Below, piece after piece: positions 1,535 through 12,383 of a stretch of DNA of 37,846 bases (positions are counted from its first letter, which is position 1; each line of letters begins with the position of its first letter). The DNA is from Candidatus Omnitrophota bacterium (GTDB lineage: Bacteria; Omnitrophota; Gorgyraeia; JACQQV01). The stretch spans positions 1 to 37,846 of the forward strand of contig JACQQV010000034.1 in the NCBI GenBank assembly GCA_016206785.1, read 5' to 3'. The position numbers and the translations under genes were made by a program. Under the pieces are notes generated by a model. The model made no database searches. It saw nothing but the letters and a program-made list of their open reading frames with translations, and was not told the origin of the DNA.

Positions 1535-1563
1535 TTGACGCCCTCACAGGCTTTTGTTAGACT
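1535..1563 (+). promoter_or_regulatory. Sigma70-type promoter giving a leaderless GT39 mRNA
   Basis: TTGACG (1535-1540) and TAGACT (1558-1563) are 17 nt apart. Seven bases separate the -10 from ATG 1571, so the predicted start of transcription falls on or next to the A of the start codon. No Shine-Dalgarno sequence precedes that ATG. It lies 20 nt from the divergent promoter of the peptide cassette, so one regulator could act on both. Confidence 0.45.
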
Positions 1564-1570
1564 GACACCA

Positions 1571-3112
1571 ATGAAAAAAGGGTCTTTTTTTTGGATTCTT
1601 CTTGCCGTTGTCTCGATCTTCCTCCAATTTTACCAGTTAGGGGAAAGGAGCCTCTGGGAGGATGAGGCCCAAGTTGCGGGCAAGGCCTCTTGGAAACTTA
1701 AAGGGATTCTCCTCTATCAAAAAAATGCCCTCTATAACATCATTTTATCCTTTTGGGGCCGTTTCGGAAAGGACGAATTTTGGCTGAGGATTCCCTCGGC
1801 CCTTTTTGCCCTCTTTTCTCTTGTCGCCCTCTACGAATTAGGGAAAAAACTTTTCTCAAGGAAGGAGGCCTTTCTTGCAACGGTCCTTCTAAGTACATCT
1901 CCCTTCTTCCTCCTCGGATCCCGCCAAGTCAAAATGGAGAGTCTTGTCCTTTTTCTATCCCTCGTGAGTGTTATTTTTTTAACTCAATTCGTCGAAACGG
2001 GTCGTCTCGGAAAACTTCTTGGGTATATCGGGATCTCTCTCATGGCGATTTTAACGCACTATATGTTTTTCCCGCTCCTTCTTGCCCAATGCATTTTTGT
2101 CGTTATCTCGTTAAGAAATAAACCGCATCTCATCCTCCGCTATTTTGCGATCTGGCTTCTTGTTTTTCTTCTTTTTCTCCCGTCCTTTCCAAATCTTATG
2201 AAGCGCCTCGCCTATCTTCAGGGGGTCTACCTCTCTCCAAAAACCCCGGAGACCCTTTCTATGCCCTTCGGTTATTTTGGAAAAATGGCTCTGGTCTATT
2301 ATCTTTTCACGGCGGGTCCGACGATCGTCCCCTGGAATCTTCTCTGGGTCGTTCCTGCCACCCTTCTCTCAGGAGTCCTCCTCCTTTGCTCTTTCAACGT
2401 CTGCTTGAGGAGATCTTCTCGGCTCATTCCCCTCGCTTTTCTCTTCCCCATTCTCTTCTTATCAGCGATGCGAAACGCACAACCCCGCTACTGCTTTGTC
2501 TCTCTCCCGTTTTACACCCTCCTCCTTTCCACAGCCCTTTTTTCCCTCCGCCCCCTCTTAAGGAATCTCTTTCTATCCTGTCTTATTGTTGTGAATACCT
2601 ATGGCCTTGTCAATTACTTCGCGGGACGTCAATATCTCTTCATCACCTATTTAGAACCTTACCGACAAATCGTTTACTCTGTTCAAAAGGCGTTCGCCCC
2701 GGGGGACTTTCTCCTCCACACCCAAGAGAATCCCTCCTTTGATTATTACTTCCATGGATTGTTTCAAAAGGACGCCCCTCAAGGAAAACTTCACACGGTC
2801 GACCGGGAAAGGAGAATTCATGTAGTGAGTTGGGAAGAATTAAAAAACAAATTTCCTCCCAGCATCAACCGCCTCTGGTACATTGAACGGACGCCGGGCC
2901 AATACGTAGAGGCAACCCCCATTTCGGATGCCGAAAGGATCTATCGTGAAAATTTATCTTTTCGCTCATGGCTTGATGAGCACTTTCGTCTTTTGGATCG
3001 AAAAGCGTATCTGAAGGATTTAGAGGTGGGGAAAAAAAGAAAGATTGTTTCTAAGCTCTATCTTGAAGAAAGAATTGTCGTTTCCCTCTACGACCTCAAG
3101 AACACCCCTTAA
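1571..3112 (+). CDS. GT39-like integral membrane glycosyltransferase
   Basis: A 513-residue polytopic membrane protein of the PMT/ArnT clan (GT39/GT83-like, PMT_2 type). The first helix (FFWILLAVVSIFLQFYQLG) is followed by RSLWEDEAQVAGKA, the acidic D/E loop that in this clan binds the metal and lipid-phosphate sugar donor. About ten further hydrophobic segments follow, then a soluble C-terminal domain from about residue 370. Such enzymes move a sugar from a polyprenyl-phosphate carrier to a lipid, glycan or protein on the outer face of the inner membrane; the acceptor cannot be told. The ATG at 1571 is preferred over an in-frame TTG at 1535 because that TTG is the promoter -35. The gene converges with the tyrosine kinase gene, the two stop codons sharing TTAA. 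Confidence 0.75.
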   Translation: MKKGSFFWILLAVVSIFLQFYQLGERSLWEDEAQVAGKASWKLKGILLYQKNALYNIILSFWGRFGKDEFWLRIPSALFALFSLVALYELGKKLFSRKEAFLATVLLSTSPFFLLGSRQVKMESLVLFLSLVSVIFLTQFVETGRLGKLLGYIGISLMAILTHYMFFPLLLAQCIFVVISLRNKPHLILRYFAIWLLVFLLFLPSFPNLMKRLAYLQGVYLSPKTPETLSMPFGYFGKMALVYYLFTAGPTIVPWNLLWVVPATLLSGVLLLCSFNVCLRRSSRLIPLAFLFPILFLSAMRNAQPRYCFVSLPFYTLLLSTALFSLRPLLRNLFLSCLIVVNTYGLVNYFAGRQYLFITYLEPYRQIVYSVQKAFAPGDFLLHTQENPSFDYYFHGLFQKDAPQGKLHTVDRERRIHVVSWEELKNKFPPSINRLWYIERTPGQYVEATPISDAERIYRENLSFRSWLDEHFRLLDRKAYLKDLEVGKKRKIVSKLYLEERIVVSLYDLKNTP

Positions 3113-5022
3113 GACTTTTCGTTCTCGGCTTCTTTCTTTAACTCCTTCTTCATCTCATCCGAATAGTATTTCCGGTAGCGGTAATAGTAGGAAGAAGTCG
3201 ATTCGATTTCGACGGGCTTAAAATCATTAAACACAACCCCCAGAACCTTCGCCTGGGCCGTATCCAAGAGAACCTTGGCCCGTTTGAGGGCGTTGCGAGC
3301 GGTGCGTCCCGCCTGGTAGACGAGAATGACGCCGTCGAGTTTTGGGGCAAGGATCAAGGTATCTGTCACGGGAAGAATAGGAGGAGCGTCAAAAATTAAA
3401 ATATCGAATTCCACCAAAAGAGATCGAATGAGTTCGCCCATTTCCGCGGAGTGAAAAAGTTCCGGAGGATTGGTAGGAAGATGTCCGGCGGTCAGGAAGT
3501 TCAGATAAGCAAGGTGCGGTGTTTTGAGCGCTTCCTGCCAGTGGGCATCTCCCATGAGGAGATCCGTAATGTTTTTCAGGGCGCGGTCGTGGCTCACGGT
3601 TTTCGTCAGCACTTCGAAGAGGCCGGGGCTTCGGTCCATTTTAAAAAATTGATGGATCACCGGCCTGCGGAAATCGGCGTCGATGAGAAGGGTCTTTTTC
3701 CCGATCTGGGCTGAGGCAATCGCAAGATTTGCGCTCGTAATCGACTTACCTTCGCGGGGTGCAGTGCTGGTGATACCGATCGCCAGTTTCTCCTTTTGAG
3801 GCAACACCGAGTAGATCGCTGTCCGAAGCGTATGATACGATTCCGCCTCGGGAGAGCGGGGATCAAATTGAGTAATGAGCCTCAACTGTATCGATCTTGC
3901 CCTTTCCTCCTGGTTTTTAAAGGGGGAGGAGAAAAGTTTCTTCTTGCCGGACTCTTTCACGATATGGGGAATGACCCCCAAGACTCTGACCCCCAAAAAG
4001 GACTCCATCTCTTCGATTGCACCGATAGAGGTATCCAATCCCTCCTTAAAGAAAGCGAATACAAACCCCACCAAAATTCCCAGTACGGCACTGAGGGTAA
4101 GGCCCATCGACCGGTTCGTCCCGAAGGTAGGCCGGGGGGGAGAGGCCCCCTCAATAATGTTTAAATCTGTTACATTTTCTGCTTCTTCGATGCGTGCTGC
4201 GTTAAATCTCTCTCTCAGTTGAGAGACAACTTTTTGATTGCTCCCCACCTCCTGCGTCAGCCGAGAAAACGTCAGTTCTTCTTGAGGAAGTCTTCTGAGT
4301 TCTTCTTTCGCGGTATCGAGCTGCTGTTGTAACCGTTCCACGTCCGGATGTCTCGGTGTGGCCCGAGCAAGAAGATCCTGCAGCTTAAGCTCTAACGAGG
4401 CGATCTCCTCCTGGAATTGCCCTGCACGACTCGTGTGAAGGGTCCCCTCTTGAAATCGCTTTAAGGCTTCTTCGGAGGCCTTGAGCTTCTCCACGGCCTT
4501 TTTTAATTCTCCTTCGATAAACGCACGGACAGTGGTGATGGTACGACCTTTTTCCTCTTGATCGAAGGCGAGATACGCCTTTGCAACGGCTTCCACGATT
4601 TGTCTCGCCGTTTCAGCCTCAGGGGTGGTTGCCGTGATGCGAATGACGCTCGTCTCTCCAATCTGCTCGGTAGCGATGGCTCGCTTAATCTTTTGAATCA
4701 TCTGATCGATTTCGCGGGGATCAGAGAGTCCCTCAAGCCAACCGAGAATTTTTGCTGCGCGCTCCGCGACAGGATGACTCTTAATGATCTCCAGATGGGT
4801 CTTTATAACATAGTCTGCGGGTAGGGCACGACCGTAGACCATCCCCGTAACGGGAGCCTGAAAAGTATACTGCACCTTGATGGAAGACTGATACACGACT
4901 TTCTGGGAGGAGAGGTAATAATAAGCACCCCCCATCACCATGCAGAAAATGAGAAGGATGGTCACTTTCCTTCTTCTAAAAATACGATAGTAATCTCGTA
5001 GGTTTAGGTCGTATTGAGCCAT
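3109..5022 (-). CDS. Wzc-like polysaccharide co-polymerase with BY-kinase domain
   Basis: A 637-residue protein fusing a Wzz-type chain-length domain to a bacterial tyrosine kinase. The first membrane helix is at about residues 20-38 (VTILLIFCMVMGGAYYYL), a long coiled-coil periplasmic region spans roughly 160-290, and the second helix is at about 305-328. The cytoplasmic kinase has Walker A TAPREGKS near residue 425, Walker A' LLIDADFRRP near 450 and Walker B ILIFDAPP near 545. The tail holds the expected tyrosine cluster (SSYYYRYRKYYSDEM). It would control polymer length and export of an exopolysaccharide, cycling through autophosphorylation. It is the last gene of the enoyl reductase/ATPase/HD-GYP operon and overlaps the HD-GYP gene by 19 nt. 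No Wzx, Wzy or outer-membrane Wza-like gene is in the window. Confidence 0.9.
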   Translation of the reverse strand: MAQYDLNLRDYYRIFRRRKVTILLIFCMVMGGAYYYLSSQKVVYQSSIKVQYTFQAPVTGMVYGRALPADYVIKTHLEIIKSHPVAERAAKILGWLEGLSDPREIDQMIQKIKRAIATEQIGETSVIRITATTPEAETARQIVEAVAKAYLAFDQEEKGRTITTVRAFIEGELKKAVEKLKASEEALKRFQEGTLHTSRAGQFQEEIASLELKLQDLLARATPRHPDVERLQQQLDTAKEELRRLPQEELTFSRLTQEVGSNQKVVSQLRERFNAARIEEAENVTDLNIIEGASPPRPTFGTNRSMGLTLSAVLGILVGFVFAFFKEGLDTSIGAIEEMESFLGVRVLGVIPHIVKESGKKKLFSSPFKNQEERARSIQLRLITQFDPRSPEAESYHTLRTAIYSVLPQKEKLAIGITSTAPREGKSITSANLAIASAQIGKKTLLIDADFRRPVIHQFFKMDRSPGLFEVLTKTVSHDRALKNITDLLMGDAHWQEALKTPHLAYLNFLTAGHLPTNPPELFHSAEMGELIRSLLVEFDILIFDAPPILPVTDTLILAPKLDGVILVYQAGRTARNALKRAKVLLDTAQAKVLGVVFNDFKPVEIESTSSYYYRYRKYYSDEMKKELKKEAENEKS

Positions 5023-6053
5023 GTCTTATCCTTTGCCGCCTCAAGAATATCGACAGACTTCTTAATGTGTAGAAGGGGTTCCTGTGCCAGATTGACCCGC
5101 TTGATCTCCGGGAGGCGATCCCCACTCGCGTCCAGCCAGACGTCGATAACGGGTAGAAGCGGAAAATTTTTGTTGACCCTCACCACCTGGCCGATCTCTT
5201 TGGTGTTGAGCTGGATAAAACTTCCCACCGGATAGATGGAGAGCTCTTTCACCAAGGCCTTGAGGATGCGAACATGCTCCCCTTTAAACTGATTCCCCAT
5301 GGAATAGGCGATCATCTTCATCGCTTCGTCCTGCGTGTACCGTTTTCGATAGGGGCGGGGGTGGGTAAGCGCTTCATAGACATCCACGATGGCGATCGTG
5401 CTTCCAAATTCACTGAGCTGTTCTCCCTGGAGTCCTGCGGGGTACCCGGTTCCATCTATCCGTTCATGTTCATGCAGAATTGCATCCAACATGGTGCGGT
5501 CTAATCCCTTGGTTCCTTCCAGAAGTTCGACGGTGTAAATGGGATGCTTCTTCACAATCGCCAGTTCTTCTTCGGACAAACCGCCTCTTTTCTCCACCAA
5601 CTCCCTGGGCACCTTGGCCATTCCCACATCATGGATGAGCGCTGCAACTCCCAACTGAATAAGTTCCTGTGGCCGGTAATGGAGCCCTAACCCGACTTTG
5701 ATGGAGAGGATAGAAACATTCACGCAATGGGAATAAAGATGGTATCCTTCTTTGGGGGTGGCAGCTAACGTTAAAAGGGACTCCCCACCGCCGGTAAGGA
5801 TCTTAACCATCTTTCCTGCAATTTCCATGCCGCCGCTTATCTCAGCGATCGAGCCGCTTTCTGTCTCCTTGAATTTCTTCGTGACCCACTCGATGGCTTC
5901 CTGATAGATGAGACTTGCTTCTCCCCGTTCTGGCTCCGCCAAAGGAGGAATTGTTTCTTGGGGAGCGGTTTTTCCCTGCGGCGCCTTCTCTGTTCCTTTT
6001 GAAGAGGGTTTCAGACTTCCATCAGGCCCTAAGACATCTGAAAGGCGTACCAT
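5004..6053 (-). CDS. HD-GYP domain protein, likely c-di-GMP phosphodiesterase
   Basis: A 349-residue soluble protein. The HD-GYP core is intact: His109 in YSHCVNVS, HD at 141-142 (LIHDVGMAKVP), HEH at 194-196, and DGTGYPAGL at 200-208, followed by the conserved VDVYEALTHPRPYR block. HD-GYP enzymes hydrolyse cyclic di-GMP with a bi- or tri-metal centre. The residue after HDxG is Met rather than the usual Lys, a known variation. The N-terminal 45 residues are Pro/Lys-rich and probably disordered; there is no receiver domain, so the input signal is unknown. The ATG overlaps the ATPase gene by 1 nt (TAATG). Its place between an export ATPase and a Wzc-like kinase suggests local control of exopolysaccharide output by c-di-GMP. 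Confidence 0.88.
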   Translation of the reverse strand: MVRLSDVLGPDGSLKPSSKGTEKAPQGKTAPQETIPPLAEPERGEASLIYQEAIEWVTKKFKETESGSIAEISGGMEIAGKMVKILTGGGESLLTLAATPKEGYHLYSHCVNVSILSIKVGLGLHYRPQELIQLGVAALIHDVGMAKVPRELVEKRGGLSEEELAIVKKHPIYTVELLEGTKGLDRTMLDAILHEHERIDGTGYPAGLQGEQLSEFGSTIAIVDVYEALTHPRPYRKRYTQDEAMKMIAYSMGNQFKGEHVRILKALVKELSIYPVGSFIQLNTKEIGQVVRVNKNFPLLPVIDVWLDASGDRLPEIKRVNLAQEPLLHIKKSVDILEAAKDKTWLNTT

Positions 6054-6859
6054 TAACTCCGCCCTTCAACGCTCGCCATCGCTTCTTCCACAATGGGACG
6101 ATCTACCTGATCTCGCTTCTGGACATATCCTGTAAAAAGACACATGTCGCATATTTGATTGATGCGCCGTGGAATTCCCCCTGCTCCCTCATACACCAAT
6201 TGGATCGCCTCCTTGTTGAAAAGGGGATCGGTTCTGCCGGCAACCGAGAGGCGGTGGGAGATATATCGCTCTGTTTCTTCTTCCGTGAGGGGACCCAGAT
6301 GAAATCGTATGGAGATCCGCTGGGCAAAAGCTTTGTTGATATCTACCTGATCCTGCAGTTCCGGCTGTCCAATGAGAAGGAGGGTCACCAGGAATTTCTC
6401 TTCCATTTGAAAATTGAGAAGGAGTCGTATTTCTTCGAAGATGTCGGGGTCTTGGATGACATGCGCTTCATCAATCACCACCACCGTCTCATGGCCATCG
6501 CGGCTATTGTTTGAGAGTAGTTCCTGGAGATGAAAAAGGACATCACTTTTATGGAGGGGAGGACTTGAAACACCTAATTCGTAGAGGATCATGCGAAGCA
6601 TCTCTAGAGGATCCAGACGAGGATTGGTGATAAAGGCGATCCGGTGGCCCGATTTCTGGAGTCCCCGGATGACGGCCCGGGCCAGGAGCGTTTTCCCGCA
6701 TCCAAAAACCCCGGTCATCATCCCAGCCCCCTTCTTGCTTCTCACCACATAGAAAAGCCTCGTGAGCCCCTCTTCATGCTGCTTGGAAAGATAAAGGTAG
6801 CGGGGATCGGGCGTATTCTCAAAGGGGGCTTCTGAGAGGCCCCAGTGGGTTTCATACAT
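6053..6859 (-). CDS. ExeA/GspA-like AAA ATPase of XrtA/exopolysaccharide type
   Basis: A 268-residue ATPase starting MYETHWGLSEAPFENTPDP, the typical opening of ExeA-like proteins (Y...fgl...PF..tPdp.ylY). Walker A is GVFGCGKT, Walker B is VVVIDEAHVI, and the C-terminal part (GGIPRRINQICDMCL) is the sensor-2/lid region. Family members work in type II secretion or, as stand-alone forms, in exopolysaccharide/exosortase loci beside Wzc-like kinases. The ATG at 6859 was chosen because the family N-terminus begins there; the longer in-frame start at 6916 would overlap the reductase gene and add a non-conserved basic stretch. It follows the reductase gene by 2 nt and overlaps the HD-GYP gene by 1 nt. 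Confidence 0.85.
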   Translation of the reverse strand: MYETHWGLSEAPFENTPDPRYLYLSKQHEEGLTRLFYVVRSKKGAGMMTGVFGCGKTLLARAVIRGLQKSGHRIAFITNPRLDPLEMLRMILYELGVSSPPLHKSDVLFHLQELLSNNSRDGHETVVVIDEAHVIQDPDIFEEIRLLLNFQMEEKFLVTLLLIGQPELQDQVDINKAFAQRISIRFHLGPLTEEETERYISHRLSVAGRTDPLFNKEAIQLVYEGAGGIPRRINQICDMCLFTGYVQKRDQVDRPIVEEAMASVEGRS

Positions 6860-6861
6860 GG

Positions 6862-7674
6862 TTAACCGACGATATCCTCTCCACCGTCTACCCCGATCAC
6901 ATTGCCGGTCATCCAATGGGACTCTTCGAGGCAGAAAGTACCGATCGCCTGGGCCACATCTTTGGGTGTCGTCATCCGGCCCGAAGGATTTCTATCCAGC
7001 GCGATCTGGATCATCTTTTCATTTCCCGGAATCTTCCGAAGGGCAGGGGTATCGGTCACCCCTGCACGAACACAATTGGCGGTGATGCCAAAGGGTGCTA
7101 ACTCAAGCGCCAGTTGACGCATGTGAGATTCGAGTGTCGCCTTTGCGGCAGAAACCGCCCCATACGTTGGCCAAACCCGCGTACCGCCGGACGAGGTCAT
7201 CGCGAAAATCCGACTTCCCTTTCCCAAGAGTCTGCGCTGAACCAAATCCTGAACCCAGTAGACGAGGCTGTGGGCCATGACGTCGACGGTCATCTCCATT
7301 TGGGGTTGCGTCATCGCTTCATGGGGGTCTGAGGCGATGTACGGTTTGAGCGTTCCGAAAGCGAGTGAGTGAAAAAAGACTTTTACAGAAGGAATAGCGG
7401 ATGCATTTAACTTTTGTTGAACCGCGTCGAGTACCTCCTTTCGTTTGAGAGGGTCTGCGGCGTTCACATTAAAAAAAAGGGCCTGCCGACCCTTCGATTG
7501 AATGGTTTGGACGATCTCTTCGACATGCGGGAGTGTGTTCTTCCGATCCAGATGCACTCCGAAGATATTCATCCCTTTGCTGGCAAGTTCCAGTGAAAGG
7601 GCCTCCCCAAAGCCGCTGGAGGAACCTAAAATAAGAGACCATTCCTTCTCAAAGTGAGGAGAATTCGAAGACAC
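6862..7674 (-). CDS. Enoyl-ACP reductase, FabI/FabL-like SDR
   Basis: A 270-residue short-chain dehydrogenase. The nucleotide-binding turn is GSSSGFGEA, and the active site is Y-G-A-V-S-A-A-K, i.e. Tyr-x6-Lys, the spacing of enoyl-ACP reductases rather than the Tyr-x3-Lys of FabG. The segment VFFHSLAFG resembles the FabI HSIAF strand, while RAGVTDTPALRKIPGNEKM and NPSGRMTTPKD resemble FabL. It would carry out the last reduction in each fatty-acid elongation cycle. Start GTG 7674 has GGAGG four bases upstream. Although next to fabF, it has its own perfect consensus promoter and heads the operon with the ExeA-like ATPase. FabL versus FabI cannot be settled by eye. Because fabG is broken in this locus, a dual role deserves testing. 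Confidence 0.82.
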   Translation of the reverse strand: MSSNSPHFEKEWSLILGSSSGFGEALSLELASKGMNIFGVHLDRKNTLPHVEEIVQTIQSKGRQALFFNVNAADPLKRKEVLDAVQQKLNASAIPSVKVFFHSLAFGTLKPYIASDPHEAMTQPQMEMTVDVMAHSLVYWVQDLVQRRLLGKGSRIFAMTSSGGTRVWPTYGAVSAAKATLESHMRQLALELAPFGITANCVRAGVTDTPALRKIPGNEKMIQIALDRNPSGRMTTPKDVAQAIGTFCLEESHWMTGNVIGVDGGEDIVG

Positions 7675-7711
7675 AAGACCTCCTAACCCTAATTTCCACT
7701 ATAAATTAGAT

Positions 7712-7740
7712 ATTATACTAAAGAAAGACAAAAGTGTCAA
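7712..7740 (-). promoter_or_regulatory. Perfect consensus sigma70 promoter of the reductase/EPS operon
   Basis: TTGACA (7735-7740), 17 nt, TATAAT (7712-7717) on the minus strand: all twelve hexamer bases match. Transcription would begin near 7705, leaving about 30 nt of leader with GGAGG before GTG 7674. It sits in the 76-nt gap after fabF. Confidence 0.8.
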
Positions 7741-7750
7741 CGGTTTTTGC

Positions 7751-8986
7751 CTAAACCCGCTTAAAGACGAGGGTGGCGTTGTGGCCACCGAAGCCGAAGG
7801 AGTTGGAAAGGGCCACGTCCACCTTGGCCCTGCGCGCAGCATTGGGAACGTAGTCAAGGTCGCATTCAGGATCTTGGTTTTCGTAATTGATCGTGGGATG
7901 AATGATCCCCTCCTGAATCGTGAGCGCGCAGACTACCGCCTCCACACCTCCCGCAGCGCCCAAGAGATGACCGGTCATGGATTTCGTGGAGGAGATCGGA
8001 ATTTTTTTGGCATCCTCTCCAAAGACCTGTTTGATGGCGACCGTCTCCATCTTGTCATTGAGAGGGGTGGAGGTCCCATGGGCATTGATATAGTGGACCT
8101 CGGAGGGAGAAATCTTGGCGCGCTCCAGGGCTTGACGCATCGCGTTCGCAGCCCCCATCCCGTCTTGAGGGGGGGCGGTCATGTGATAGGCATCTCCTGT
8201 CATGCCGTAGCCGACGATCTCGCAATAGATGTGGGCTCCCCGTTTCCTGGCACGCTCATATTCTTCAAGAATGAGAATTCCGCATCCCTCCCCCATGACG
8301 AACCCATCCCGATCCCGCTCGAAGGGACGGGATGCCCTCGGAGGATCATCGTTTCGCAGAGAGAGCGCTTTTAAGGCGCAGAATCCGCCGATGCCCATCG
8401 GGGTAATACAACTTTCTGTACCGCCCGCCACCATGGCATCGGCATCTCCCCTTTGAATGATCTGAAATGCATCCCCCACCGCGTGGCTCCCAGAGGCGCA
8501 GGCGGTCGCCACACACGAATTGGGACCCTTGAGCCCAAGGCTAATCGATACCTGTCCAGGGGCCATATTGACAATCAGCATCGGGATAAGAAACGGAGAG
8601 ATCTTGCCTGGGCCTTTTTCAAGAAGGATCTTATGCTGCTCTTCAATAACATGGAGGCTTCCGATACCGGAGCCCAGAAGAACTCCAAAGCGGTAGGCAT
8701 CCTCTTTGGAAAGGTCGACCCCGGAATCTTGAATCGCCATCTTGGTGGCACAGACTGCAAATTGAACAAAGAGCTCCATCCGCCTCTGGTCTTTTGCGGA
8801 AATAAATGGGTTAGGATCGAACCTTTTTACCTCTCCGGCAATGCGAGACTCATAGGCCGACGCATCAAAAGAGGTGATGCCTCCTATGCCACTTTTCCCT
8901 TCTACGAGCGACTTCCAGAAGTCTTGGACTGTATTCCCTACAGGAGTAATCACGCCGACTCCTGTTGCTACAACCCGTCGTCCCAC
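7751..8986 (-). CDS. fabF: 3-oxoacyl-ACP synthase II
   Basis: A 411-residue condensing enzyme of full FabF length. The catalytic triad is visible: Cys in VATACASGSHAV, His in NAHGTSTPLND, and His in SMTGHLLGAAGG. It elongates acyl-ACP with malonyl-ACP in the cytoplasm. Start GTG 8986 follows GGAGGGG closely. It is separated from acpP by 97 nt that contain a terminator-like hairpin, so it probably receives less transcription than acpP. The next gene downstream has its own promoter, so this is the likely end of the recG-to-fabF transcript. Confidence 0.95.
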   Translation of the reverse strand: MGRRVVATGVGVITPVGNTVQDFWKSLVEGKSGIGGITSFDASAYESRIAGEVKRFDPNPFISAKDQRRMELFVQFAVCATKMAIQDSGVDLSKEDAYRFGVLLGSGIGSLHVIEEQHKILLEKGPGKISPFLIPMLIVNMAPGQVSISLGLKGPNSCVATACASGSHAVGDAFQIIQRGDADAMVAGGTESCITPMGIGGFCALKALSLRNDDPPRASRPFERDRDGFVMGEGCGILILEEYERARKRGAHIYCEIVGYGMTGDAYHMTAPPQDGMGAANAMRQALERAKISPSEVHYINAHGTSTPLNDKMETVAIKQVFGEDAKKIPISSTKSMTGHLLGAAGGVEAVVCALTIQEGIIHPTINYENQDPECDLDYVPNAARRAKVDVALSNSFGFGGHNATLVFKRV

Positions 8987-9083: not shown

Positions 9084-9323
9084 TTAATTGCCGGTGGTCT
9101 TCTTCTCAATATATTTAATGGCATCCTCGACGGTGATGATCTTCTCCGCATCCTCATCAGGAATCTCTACACCAAATTCCTCCTCAAGGGCCATGACCAA
9201 TTCGACGGTGTCGAGGGAATCCGCCCCCAAATCATTGACAAAGGATGCGGTCGGCGTGACCTCTTCCGGTTTGGCACCTAACTGTTCTACGATGATCGCC
9301 TTGACCTTTTCAGCAACGGACAT
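9084..9323 (-). CDS. acpP: Acyl carrier protein
   Basis: A 79-residue acidic protein with the phosphopantetheine site in [19 protein letters not shown]; Ser of DSL is the attachment residue. It carries growing acyl chains for the Fab enzymes and for PlsX. Length and the four-helix pattern are standard. A strong ribosome site (AAAGGAGGGAAGG) precedes ATG 9323. The region upstream, where fabG would normally be, holds only a fragment of that gene with a promoter-like sequence inside it; downstream is a terminator-like hairpin. Together these would make acpP a separately transcribed, abundant message. Confidence 0.97.
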
Positions 9324-9367: not shown

Positions 9368-9475
9368 TTAAAGAGCTTCCGCGGTGATTCCCGCATTGTT
9401 GACCAGTATATCAATCGTTCCAAATTTGTCAAGGGTTTTCTCCGCCAACTCTTTCACTTGGTCAGGCTTAGAGAT
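9368..9475 (-). pseudogene. fabG: Internal fragment of 3-oxoacyl-ACP reductase (fabG remnant)
   Basis: The gap between fabD and acpP, the usual place of fabG, still encodes a FabG-like stretch on the minus strand: ISKPDQVKELAEKT, then LDKFGTIDILVNNAGIT, then AEAL and a TAA. The DILVNNAGIT strand is the highly conserved NNAG motif of FabG and related SDR reductases. Only 35 codons are left (about residues 60-95 of a normal 245-residue FabG). The N-terminal Rossmann turn, the Ser-Tyr-Lys active site and the C-terminus are absent. The fragment is in a different frame from fabD and has no ribosome site, and its first codons overlap the last codons of fabD, as if a deletion fused the two. An assembly collapse is possible but would have to remove two separate parts of the gene. 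Confidence 0.82.
9405..9432 (-). promoter_or_regulatory. Candidate acpP promoter inside the fabG remnant
   Basis: TTGACA (9427-9432) and TATACT (9405-9410) are 16 nt apart on the minus strand; 11 of 12 hexamer bases match consensus. The start of transcription would be near 9398, about 75 nt before the acpP ATG. These bases encode part of the LDKFGTIDILV stretch of the fabG remnant. Confidence 0.5.
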
Positions 9476-10388
9476 ATAAGAGTTTAGTCTCTTCAAGGGT
9501 TTCTACATGAGAACAGGCAACTGTCGGGTCTATTTTCCGTAGGAGTCCTGTCAAGACCTTCCCCGGTCCAATTTCCACAAACTGGCGGATCCCTTTCCCG
9601 ATCAGAAACCGCATCGATTCCTCCCAGAGAACCGTTTCACTCACCTGCCTTACAAGACCTTTCCGAATCTGCGAGGGGTCTTCCTCGAAATGAGCCGTCA
9701 CATTGCTGACAAAAGGAACTTTGGGCGGCTTCAGAGGAAGATCCTGGAGAACTTTCTCAAGGGCCTCTCCTGCTTCTTTCATGAAACGGGAATGAAAAGG
9801 ACCGCTCACCTCCAAGCGGGTCACTCTTTTGGCTCCAGCCTCCTTCGAAAGGGTCATGACCCTTTCGATATCAGAGACGCGGCCTGAGACAACGATTTGG
9901 TCGGGACAGTTGAGGTTTGCCACTTCGGTTCTTGTTCTCTCACAAAGTTCCTTGACGGTTTGAAGGTTCAATCCGAAGAGGACAGCCAACGTCCCGGGTG
10001 TCTTTTTGGACGCTTCCTCCATGAAACGTCCCCTCGCTGCGACGGCGCGAAGGGCCTCCTCAAAGGAAAGAACCCCGGAAGCGTAAAGGGCCGTATATTC
10101 TCCCAAGCTGAGTCCACAGGTTGCCTGCGGCTGATACGGATTTTTCGAAGTGTGGGTCAGTGCAGCAAGCGCAGCCGCACTGGTCACAAAAATAGCAGGT
10201 TGACTATTCTGGGTAAGGGTCAGTGTCTGGAGGGGTCCTTCAAAACAGAGGGCGGTGAGTTTAAATCCGAGAAGCCTATCCGCTTTTTCGAAAATGGCTC
10301 TGGCGTCTTTGGAGTGCTCGTAGAGCTCCTTCCCCATTCCTACGAATTGGGCTCCTTGGCCGGGAAAGAGGTAGGCGCAGACTACCAT
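9468..10388 (-). CDS. fabD: Malonyl-CoA:ACP transacylase
   Basis: A 306-residue protein of normal length opening with AYLFPGQGAQFVGMGKEL. The nucleophile Ser is in CGLSLGEYTAL and the catalytic His in SGPFHSRFM; the FVEIGPGKVLTGLL block is also present. It loads malonate on ACP for FabH and FabF. ATG 10388 overlaps fabH by 7 nt. Its last codons (TKLLYL) overlap the start of the fabG remnant in another frame, so the natural C-terminus may have been replaced by a few residues at the deletion joint. Confidence 0.95.
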   Translation of the reverse strand: MVVCAYLFPGQGAQFVGMGKELYEHSKDARAIFEKADRLLGFKLTALCFEGPLQTLTLTQNSQPAIFVTSAAALAALTHTSKNPYQPQATCGLSLGEYTALYASGVLSFEEALRAVAARGRFMEEASKKTPGTLAVLFGLNLQTVKELCERTRTEVANLNCPDQIVVSGRVSDIERVMTLSKEAGAKRVTRLEVSGPFHSRFMKEAGEALEKVLQDLPLKPPKVPFVSNVTAHFEEDPSQIRKGLVRQVSETVLWEESMRFLIGKGIRQFVEIGPGKVLTGLLRKIDPTVACSHVETLEETKLLYL

Positions 10389-11386
10389 CGAACAAGACAG
10401 GAGCCCCAGACAAGTCCTCCCCCCACGGCGACGAGGACCACGAGGTCGCCCCTCTTCACCCTTCCCTCTTCCACCGCTTCACAGAGGGCGGTCACCGTCG
10501 AGGCGCTCGACATGTTACCATAACGGTTCAAATTCAAATAAATCTTTGAAAGGGGATACCCTAACCGCTCGGCCATCGCTTCAATAATGCGCACGTTGGC
10601 TTGATGGGGAATAAGACAAGTGATTTGATCCATCGTGAAACCGTTTTCCCGGACTATCCTTTCCACCGATTCTGTCATCGCCCTTACAGCCAATTTGAAG
10701 ACCTCACCCCCATTCATTCTCATATAATGAAGCCCTTCCCGAATCGTCTTTTCGCTGGCCGGAAAACGTGCTCCCCCTCCTGGAATCATCAGAAGTTCTC
10801 CATAACCCCCGTCGGATCCAAGGTAGGTGGAAAGAATCCCTCCTTCTGAGACAGGGGCCATCACCGCTGCGCCTGCCCCGTCTCCAAAAAGGACGCAGGT
10901 ATTCCGGTCCTTCCAGTCGACAATGGTGGAAAGGGTCTCGGCGCCGACGACGAGGGCGTTCTTGTAGGTCCCTGCTGCAATAAACTGCTTGGCGATAGTC
11001 AAGGCATGGATAAATCCTGAGCACGCTGCGGAGACATCAAAACAGGCGGCCCGCTTTGCGCCCAATTTTTCCTGGATAAGACAACTGGTGGCGGGAAAAG
11101 GCATATCGGGGGTAATGGTAGCGACGACGATGAGATCCACCTCTTCTGGACGAAGACCCGCTCGGGCAATGGCCGCTTCCGAGGCCCGCGCCCCCAGATC
11201 ACTGGTGACCATTCCGTTGGAGACGACCCGTCGCTCCTTAATGCCTGTACGGGTGGCGATCCACTCATCCGAGGTATCGACCATCCTTTCAAGGTCGTGA
11301 TTGGTGAGAACCTTCTCAGGAAGATATTTTCCTAATCCGATAAAACCGACGGGGAGGAGTCCTTTCTTATCTTTGGATTCAAACAT
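10382..11386 (-). CDS. fabH: 3-oxoacyl-ACP synthase III
   Basis: A 334-residue KASIII. Catalytic Cys is in DVSAACSGFIHAL, His in IPHQANVRII and Asn in YGNMSSAS; the order and spacing are normal. It starts fatty-acid synthesis by condensing an acyl-CoA primer with malonyl-ACP. It overlaps plsX upstream by 8 nt and fabD downstream by 7 nt, the usual plsX-fabH-fabD order. About a dozen residues precede the conserved PVGFIGLGKYLPEK opening. Confidence 0.96.
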   Translation of the reverse strand: MFESKDKKGLLPVGFIGLGKYLPEKVLTNHDLERMVDTSDEWIATRTGIKERRVVSNGMVTSDLGARASEAAIARAGLRPEEVDLIVVATITPDMPFPATSCLIQEKLGAKRAACFDVSAACSGFIHALTIAKQFIAAGTYKNALVVGAETLSTIVDWKDRNTCVLFGDGAGAAVMAPVSEGGILSTYLGSDGGYGELLMIPGGGARFPASEKTIREGLHYMRMNGGEVFKLAVRAMTESVERIVRENGFTMDQITCLIPHQANVRIIEAMAERLGYPLSKIYLNLNRYGNMSSASTVTALCEAVEEGRVKRGDLVVLVAVGGGLVWGSCLVRW

Positions 11387-12383
11387 AGGTTCCCTTCTTT
11401 CCTAAGGTGGCCTGAATTTTTTCATTCAGTTGAGAACTGACGAACTCCCCCGCGACCCGGATCGCATTTTTAATCGCTTTTGCAGAAGAAGCCCCGTGAC
11501 AGATGATGCAGGCCCCGTTCACCCCCAAAAGGGGCGCTCCTCCGAATTCAGTATAATCCAATCGTTTTTTAAGGCGTGAGAGGGTCGGTTTAATGAGGAG
11601 TGAGCCCATTTTACTCAAAAAACTTGACATGAGTTCCCGACGGAGAAGAATATTGGTCGATTCCGCGAGGGATTCTGTGACCTTGAGCACAACATTTCCC
11701 ACAAACCCGTCACAGACGACCACATCGATTTTTCCGGAGAAGATGTCCCTTCCCTCAATATTCCCGACAAAGTTCAGACGGCTTTCCTCGATCAGTTTGT
11801 GGGTTTCCTTCATGAAATCGGGTCCCTTGGACTCTTCCTCCCCAATATTCAGAAGACCGACGCGAGGCTCTTTCTTGTGGAGGATGAGTGACGCATAAGT
11901 GGATCCCATCACGGCATACTGGAGGAGGTGCTCCGGCTTGGCATCGATATTGGCGCCGATATCGATGATGACCGAATGTCCATTCAGGGTGGGATAGGCG
12001 ATGGCAATCCCAGGCCGCTCGATCCCCTCCAATAGACCAAGGGTCAGCGTCGTTGCGACGACGGCCGCCCCGGTGTGCCCAGCACTCACGACCGCGTCCG
12101 CTTCTTTCTTTTTGACAAGTTCCGCGGCCACGACAATGGAAGAGTCCCGTTTTTTCCGAACCGTGACCGCCGCAGGTTCCGCCATATCGACTACTTCCGA
12201 GGCGGGCCGAATCGTGACACAAGAAGGGACCGGTTTAAGTTTCGCGAGTTCCTTTTCCAAAAGGTCTTGCCGGCCCACCAGGATCACCTCGATGCCATAG
12301 GCTCTCGCCGCGTTTACCGCTCCTTCAACAACGACACGAGGGGCATGGTCTCCCCCCATTCCATCTACAGCGACTCTCGCCAT
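11379..12383 (-). CDS. plsX: Phosphate acyltransferase
   Basis: A 334-residue PlsX. It begins MARVAVDGMGGDHAP, the family hallmark, and keeps AGHTGAAVVATTLTLG, the GIERPGIA strand and the late LLGVNGACIICHGAS motif. It makes acyl-phosphate from acyl-ACP for membrane phospholipid synthesis, acting at the cytoplasmic membrane surface. It follows rpmF by a single base (TGA-G-ATG) and overlaps fabH, so it is translationally coupled to both. The rpmF-plsX-fabH order is conserved in many bacteria. Confidence 0.96.
   Translation of the reverse strand: MARVAVDGMGGDHAPRVVVEGAVNAARAYGIEVILVGRQDLLEKELAKLKPVPSCVTIRPASEVVDMAEPAAVTVRKKRDSSIVVAAELVKKKEADAVVSAGHTGAAVVATTLTLGLLEGIERPGIAIAYPTLNGHSVIIDIGANIDAKPEHLLQYAVMGSTYASLILHKKEPRVGLLNIGEEESKGPDFMKETHKLIEESRLNFVGNIEGRDIFSGKIDVVVCDGFVGNVVLKVTESLAESTNILLRRELMSSFLSKMGSLLIKPTLSRLKKRLDYTEFGGAPLLGVNGACIICHGASSAKAIKNAIRVAGEFVSSQLNEKIQATLGKKGTYV

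Follow-up and report, generated by a model that had tools for sequence, protein, structure and literature searches.

Does a gene run that places a fatty-acid enzyme ahead of three polysaccharide-export genes represent a real link, or did two known modules meet? This question is raised by a 37,846-nt stretch of DNA (hereafter, the window) from a member of Candidatus Omnitrophota, representing contig C13 of genome G000 (1.60 Mb assembly, 50 contigs, 95% complete). Four genes follow one another on its minus strand, encoding a putative enoyl-acyl carrier protein (ACP) reductase (ENR), an ExeA-type ATPase, an HD-GYP protein, and a Wzc-type kinase (Table 1), with the open reading frames (ORFs) lying where the original prediction had placed them. 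The mix was regarded there as unusual and was proposed to join lipid supply to the control of polysaccharide export by cyclic di-GMP (c-di-GMP) and a tyrosine kinase. A striking gene mix can also arise where two known modules meet, and the context in relatives is the test separating such a chance meeting from a real link. We assign a probability of about three in four to the reading that two known modules stand end to end here, the junction being a lineage-specific rearrangement and not a conserved link.

The class survey comprised 384 genomes including G000 (338 rows without a reductase match are not listed), and a reductase match (E ≤ 1e-40) was obtained for 26 of them, namely G000, 23 members of family f9, one of f51, and one of f20. 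The reductase–ExeA junction of the window was found in none of the other 25 genomes, which belong to families other than f1, the family of G000, and some contigs of which stop early. Likewise, neither this junction nor the order reductase–ExeA–HD-GYP–Wzc was present in any of the 80 named loci, these being 80 retained from 257 encoding a reductase relative and many of them being shortened by contig ends; at L102, an HD-GYP match lies approximately 2.5 kb upstream of the reductase relative. The linkage whose conservation had been suggested as a check is lost in these relatives from other families, leaving the proposed joining of lipid supply to export control unsupported by conservation. In f9 and f51, smc is located downstream on the same strand in all 24 loci, and a secretin gene upstream in 22 of them, while the 1.5 kb available for the remaining two loci contained no secretin (L003, L004, and L038–L059). 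The f20 reductase locus is a 4.4-kb contig bearing neither smc nor secretin. Within the Nitrospirota, all 18 reductase loci lie inside a fab cluster, and all 18 fab-cluster loci among the 80 were assigned to this phylum by title or lineage. The reductase gene is positioned there between fabH (upstream in 18/18) and fabD (downstream in 17/18, the contig of L084 ending first), and a FabG query on four of these loci (L070, L085, L089, and L115) located fabG between fabD and acpP each time.

The export genes recur independently of the reductase. Relatives of the ExeA ATPase (E ≤ 1e-40) and of the HD-GYP protein (E ≤ 1e-25) were detected in 310 and 231 of the 384 class genomes, respectively. In 21 of the 29 top-scoring non-own HD-GYP loci, an ExeA gene was found at most 600 nt upstream on the same strand; in two others it was more distant, and in six none was present in the stretch covered. 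The order ExeA–HD-GYP–Wza–Wzc–Wzy was recovered in seven of 12 non-own regions, six belonging to f36 and the seventh, with approximately 3.5 kb between Wza and Wzc, to f19. Of the five remaining regions, one contains ATPases and HD-GYP but lacks Wzc, one has Wzc on the opposite strand, another has it upstream, one is limited to HD-GYP, and one reads Wza–Wzc–ExeA–Wzy with HD-GYP missing. G000 itself carries a paralogous cluster on contig C2 (ExeA–HD-GYP–ExeA–x–Wza–Wzc–Wzy–glycosyltransferase–Wzx, beside PBP2 and RodA), in which Wzc is 39% identical to that of the window and x denotes a 132-aa ORF on the opposite strand, perhaps not a gene; two further ExeA genes plus an exosortase are encoded on contig C42. 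No Wza, Wzy, or Wzx gene lies beside the window trio, all three being present in the C2 cluster. Because the order recurs in Omnitrophota without the reductase, and also within G000, the trio is, judged by gene order, a reduced copy of a recurrent Omnitrophota exopolysaccharide module independent of the reductase, and this part of the mix can no longer be called unusual. The module, with an HD-GYP protein between the ExeA ATPase and the Wza/Wzc exporter, deserves attention; literature searches, mostly at the level of listings, returned nothing on an ExeA–HD-GYP–Wzc module or on the reductase subfamily.

The signature of HD-GYP proteins comprises the HD and HHExxDGxGYP residues, and the window protein, as deduced from its motifs, is likely a c-di-GMP phosphodiesterase. 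The Wzc-type protein exceeds its model cut-off and features the Walker motifs (Walker A, APREGKS, being a slight variant) and the Tyr-rich tail that define bacterial tyrosine (BY) kinases. Its gene and a convergent PMT_2 glycosyltransferase gene (1535–3112, plus strand) share 4 bases at their stop ends (3109–3112).

The reductase had been described as heading an operon, which holds in the promoter sense only; its gene also stands at the end of a type II fatty acid synthesis (FAS-II)/phospholipid cluster, plsX–fabH–fabD–[fabG remnant]–acpP–fabF–ENR, that was absent from the original prediction. The fabG stub between fabD and acpP (26.9 bits against TIGR01830, E 2.8e-6) shares 55% identity over 29 residues with FabG of G042. 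FabG scored above the TIGR01830 cut-off in five of eight genomes tested (327.8–336.4 bits), the exceptions being G161, G263 (FabG pieces, one at a contig start), and G000, in the assembly of which no canonical FabG over the cut-off was found elsewhere. In the five FabG-bearing genomes, intact fabG directly precedes acpP–fabF (5/5 loci, L251–L255). An HD-GYP-type gene was observed just upstream of intact fabG in the same five loci, which originate from f9/f20 Omnitrophota; in G042, it resembles a response regulator, as read from the translation. Further TIGR01830 matches in G000 were two short-chain dehydrogenases/reductases (SDRs), on C19 (187.1 bits) and C42 (134.5 bits), and the reductase itself (80.4 bits). 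The C19 protein was rejected as an overlooked FabG: in NCBIfam, it matches pteridine reductase best (225.9 bits vs. a cut-off of 288), its gene sits between queC and queD, and Asp replaces the catalytic Ser in the alignment, which we take to speak against a FabG. The C42 protein, encoded among sugar-type genes (names read from translations), was likewise rejected.

It is conceivable, though at well below even odds, that the remnant is an assembly deletion and that living cells possess the full cluster, the other readings being unchanged. The 50-contig, 95% complete state of the genome and the fact that FabG is normally essential favor such a deletion, whereas the two separate break points within approximately 150 nt, flanked by an intact fabD and an intact acpP, argue against it. 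True loss of fabG, a copy in the missing part of the genome, and an assembly fault may each account for the lack of an intact gene. A promoter-like site matching 11 of 12 consensus positions (9432–9405, minus strand; TTGACA-16-TATACT, with TG preceding the second hexamer) is contained in the stub, upstream of acpP–fabF; a promoter function may be why the stub persists.

Regarding the run itself, the proposed identities of the four genes were borne out by matches to PF13561, PF13401, PF13487, and TIGR01007, and the tight spacing was confirmed. The TAA of the reductase gene is followed after 2 nt by the ExeA ATG at 6859 (+2), the ExeA and HD-GYP genes have one base in common (TAATG, −1 nt), and the HD-GYP and Wzc genes overlap by 19 nt (5004–5022, −19). 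The listed ExeA ORF starts with TTG at 6916, inside the reductase gene; this start was rejected for the natural ATG at 6859, the point from which relatives align. The perfect consensus promoter proposed for the run was also recovered, occurring once in the window and in none of 100 dinucleotide shuffles, so that a chance origin was rejected. It is separated from the reductase gene by a leader of 37 nt, with AGGAGG located 4 nt ahead of the GTG start. The possible counter-evidence named there, a strong promoter of the ATPase gene's own, was not detected, no minus-strand site with at least 9 of 12 matches being found between 7712 and 6859, within the reductase gene. Since no internal promoter was found, a single transcript over the four genes is plausible. 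A weak terminator-like stem (7789–7772) overlaps the end of fabF, but is given little weight because the region contains 22 such sites vs. 14.1 expected.

Most simply, a rearrangement placed the export module under the reductase promoter. The first module would be the FAS-II/phospholipid cluster with its decayed fabG, in which the reductase would complete elongation, and the second a shortened exopolysaccharide module probably acting on a Wzy-type polysaccharide. In the latter, the ExeA-type ATPase may assemble or energize polymer export, the HD-GYP protein would lower c-di-GMP, and the Wzc-type kinase would control polymer length and export. A rearrangement in this lineage, of presumed direction, would have set the second module two bases behind the reductase gene, where transcription from the promoter at 7740–7712 probably extends into it. 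The export genes would then be expressed constantly and in step with growth, and no dedicated lipid-to-polysaccharide regulatory link would be needed.

Several observations weigh against this reading. The f9 export operon upstream of the reductase includes an ExeA-family ATPase, found approximately 2.5–3 kb upstream in 16 of the 80 named loci (contig ends truncate several of the others), and a recurrent link between reductase and envelope export may therefore exist; in the two genomes compared (G008 and G042), this ATPase is approximately 30% identical to the window ExeA. In the reductase tree, the window sequence was not placed with support, so that it may have been either inherited or acquired by transfer. 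The junction cannot be dated because no other f1 genome was among the 384 searched: no second f1 genome with the reductase was found there, and G000 itself is the only f1 member of the 59 genomes listed (itself included in both). Moreover, the 12 regions surveyed for the export module were chosen by matches, with six of the seven positives from f36, and co-transcription of the reductase with the export genes is inferred from the spacing and the promoter scan.

The same f9 arrangement, where an export operon containing an ExeA-family ATPase once more precedes the reductase, would suit a true functional operon, as would the tight spacing and overlaps and the missing internal promoter. In such an operon, the reductase would provide the membrane or carrier lipid needed for polysaccharide export and would be regulated jointly with the genes for c-di-GMP and tyrosine-kinase control. 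We consider it unlikely, given that the junction occurs in no other reductase-bearing class genome and at none of the named loci, that the export trio is found repeatedly where the reductase is not, and that the Nitrospirota reductase is FAS-II-linked.

Table 1. Features of the fatty-acid cluster and the export run on the window.
Feature	Position	Strand	Remarks
Wzc-like Wzz-GNVR-BY-kinase	3109..5022	minus	TIGR01007 163.1 bits vs. 108.05 cut-off; Tyr-rich tail SSYYYRYRKYY
HD-GYP domain protein	5004..6053	minus	PF13487 103.6 bits; HD (HDVG) and HEHERIDGTGYP present
ExeA/XrtA-associated-type AAA ATPase	6053..6859	minus	PF13401 (AAA_22) 78.3 bits; Walker A GVFGCGKT, Walker B VVVIDEAH
Putative SDR-type enoyl-ACP reductase, FabL/FabI-like	6862..7674	minus	PF13561 143.5 bits; HSLAF + Yx6K; GTG start, AGGAGG upstream
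Promoter-like site TTGACA-N17-TATAAT	7712..7740	minus	exact 12-of-12 sigma-70 consensus, spacer 17
fabF	7751..8986	minus	TIGR03150, 670.9 bits; directly upstream of promoter
acpP	9084..9323	minus	79 aa; named by sequence and synteny
fabG remnant	9371..9484	minus	~38 codons, FabG model positions 54–91; out of frame with fabD
fabD	9468..10388	minus	profile match
fabH	10382..11386	minus	profile match
plsX	11379..12383	minus	profile match

The reductase features the catalytic Tyr-x6-Lys spacing of FabI and FabL (YGAVSAAK), which is a criterion for SDR-type enoyl-ACP reductases according to an excerpt of PMC9260719. In the tblastn set (106 rows, 86 different), both this spacing and an HSxAF-type stretch were present in 106/106 rows. 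None of the NCBIfam cut-offs shown was exceeded by the window reductase; the FabL model NF005975, matched by 26/26 relatives scanned, was its best match. The predicted structure was confident (mean predicted local distance difference test score of 88.8), and VIA-align placed FabL entries on top (Z 31.0 and 30.9); since many SDRs follow within 1–2 Z, the fold alone does not discriminate the class. With Foldseek, the E. coli FabI chain ranked first, and FabL second and third. Concerning other candidates, the FabK model gave nothing over its cut-off in any of nine genomes, G000 included, and FabV (PF12242) had no match in G000, its few weak matches elsewhere falling in the reductase itself. The sole match to the FabI model in G000 at E ≤ 1e-15 was the reductase (82.6 bits), which was also the top match in three Nitrospirota genomes; G006 has a 299-bit match. 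This cut-off is strict, being exceeded by no genome, controls included, which renders the test soft. Thus, the reductase seems to be the only enoyl-ACP reductase candidate found in G000, and the best reading of the sequence is that it acts as the ENR of this genome, its class being neither FabI nor FabL by model score. A role as a sugar or polysaccharide SDR was not favored, given the FAS-II context. The reductase gene follows fabF in the window. The ENR-like SDR subfamily with HSxAF and Yx6K appeared to be widespread (L060–L139), with members in Nitrospirota, Omnitrophota, Methylomirabilota, Rokuibacteriota, Chloroflexota, and others, by record title. Its FAS-II linkage in Nitrospirota and a window member that is below the NCBIfam cut-offs and seemingly the only enoyl reductase of G000 make this broad subfamily worth noting.

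A joint scenario, in which canonical fabG was truly lost in the lineage, a non-FabG SDR assumed ketoacyl-ACP reduction, the stub was kept as the acpP–fabF promoter, and the last gene of the cluster, an enoyl reductase of an undescribed class, became transcriptionally wired to polysaccharide-export control, is improbable as a whole. That the reductase now performs the ketoacyl-ACP reduction of the missing FabG, either exclusively or in addition to enoyl reduction, would fit the fabG remnant in its syntenic slot and an assembly without a FabG over the cut-off, but is very improbable in view of the FabI/FabL-like Yx6K spacing throughout the tblastn set, of just four departures from 25 relatives at columns at least 85% conserved (none at Ser, Tyr, or Lys), and of relatives retaining the reductase in genomes with intact fabG.

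Compared with known systems, the arrangement is new, while both component modules are of known kinds. The reductase resembles FabL, the enoyl-ACP reductase III of B. subtilis (PDB 3oic/3oid), which is its best solved relative (sequence E 6.7e-27; profile E 6.3e-40), in the SDR fold, the Tyr-x6-Lys without the FabI methionine, and the Ser before Tyr. It differs in an identity of approximately 28–29%, in HSLAF replacing the NNAAS of FabL, and in reaching 152.6 bits vs. the 328-bit cut-off. With FabI (enoyl-ACP reductase I), it shares the Yx6K spacing and the His-Ser-x-Ala-Phe stretch, presumably HSIAF in FabI, but scores 83.2 bits against the model NF005717 (cut-off 337), and the methionine at the FabI place of Yx6K was found in 0/106 rows of the tblastn set. 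The export module recalls the XrtA/PEP-CTERM exopolysaccharide cluster (TIGR03015 ATPase, TIGR03018 kinase, and TIGR03027 export protein) in its ATPase and kinase families, with the export-protein family on C2 and an exosortase in the genome. Unlike in that cluster, an HD-GYP gene lies here between ATPase and kinase, the exosortase is on another contig (C42), and all window and C2 scores are under the model cut-offs (for the window ExeA, 220.4 bits over 264 residues vs. 324.5 for TIGR03015). Although the window copy stands without the adjacent partners of Wzx/Wzy-dependent export (Wza–Wzc), its Wzc is, as in that system, a fused chain-length/BY-kinase protein with a Tyr-rich tail, and the Wza–Wzc–Wzy–Wzx set is present on contig C2 of the same genome.

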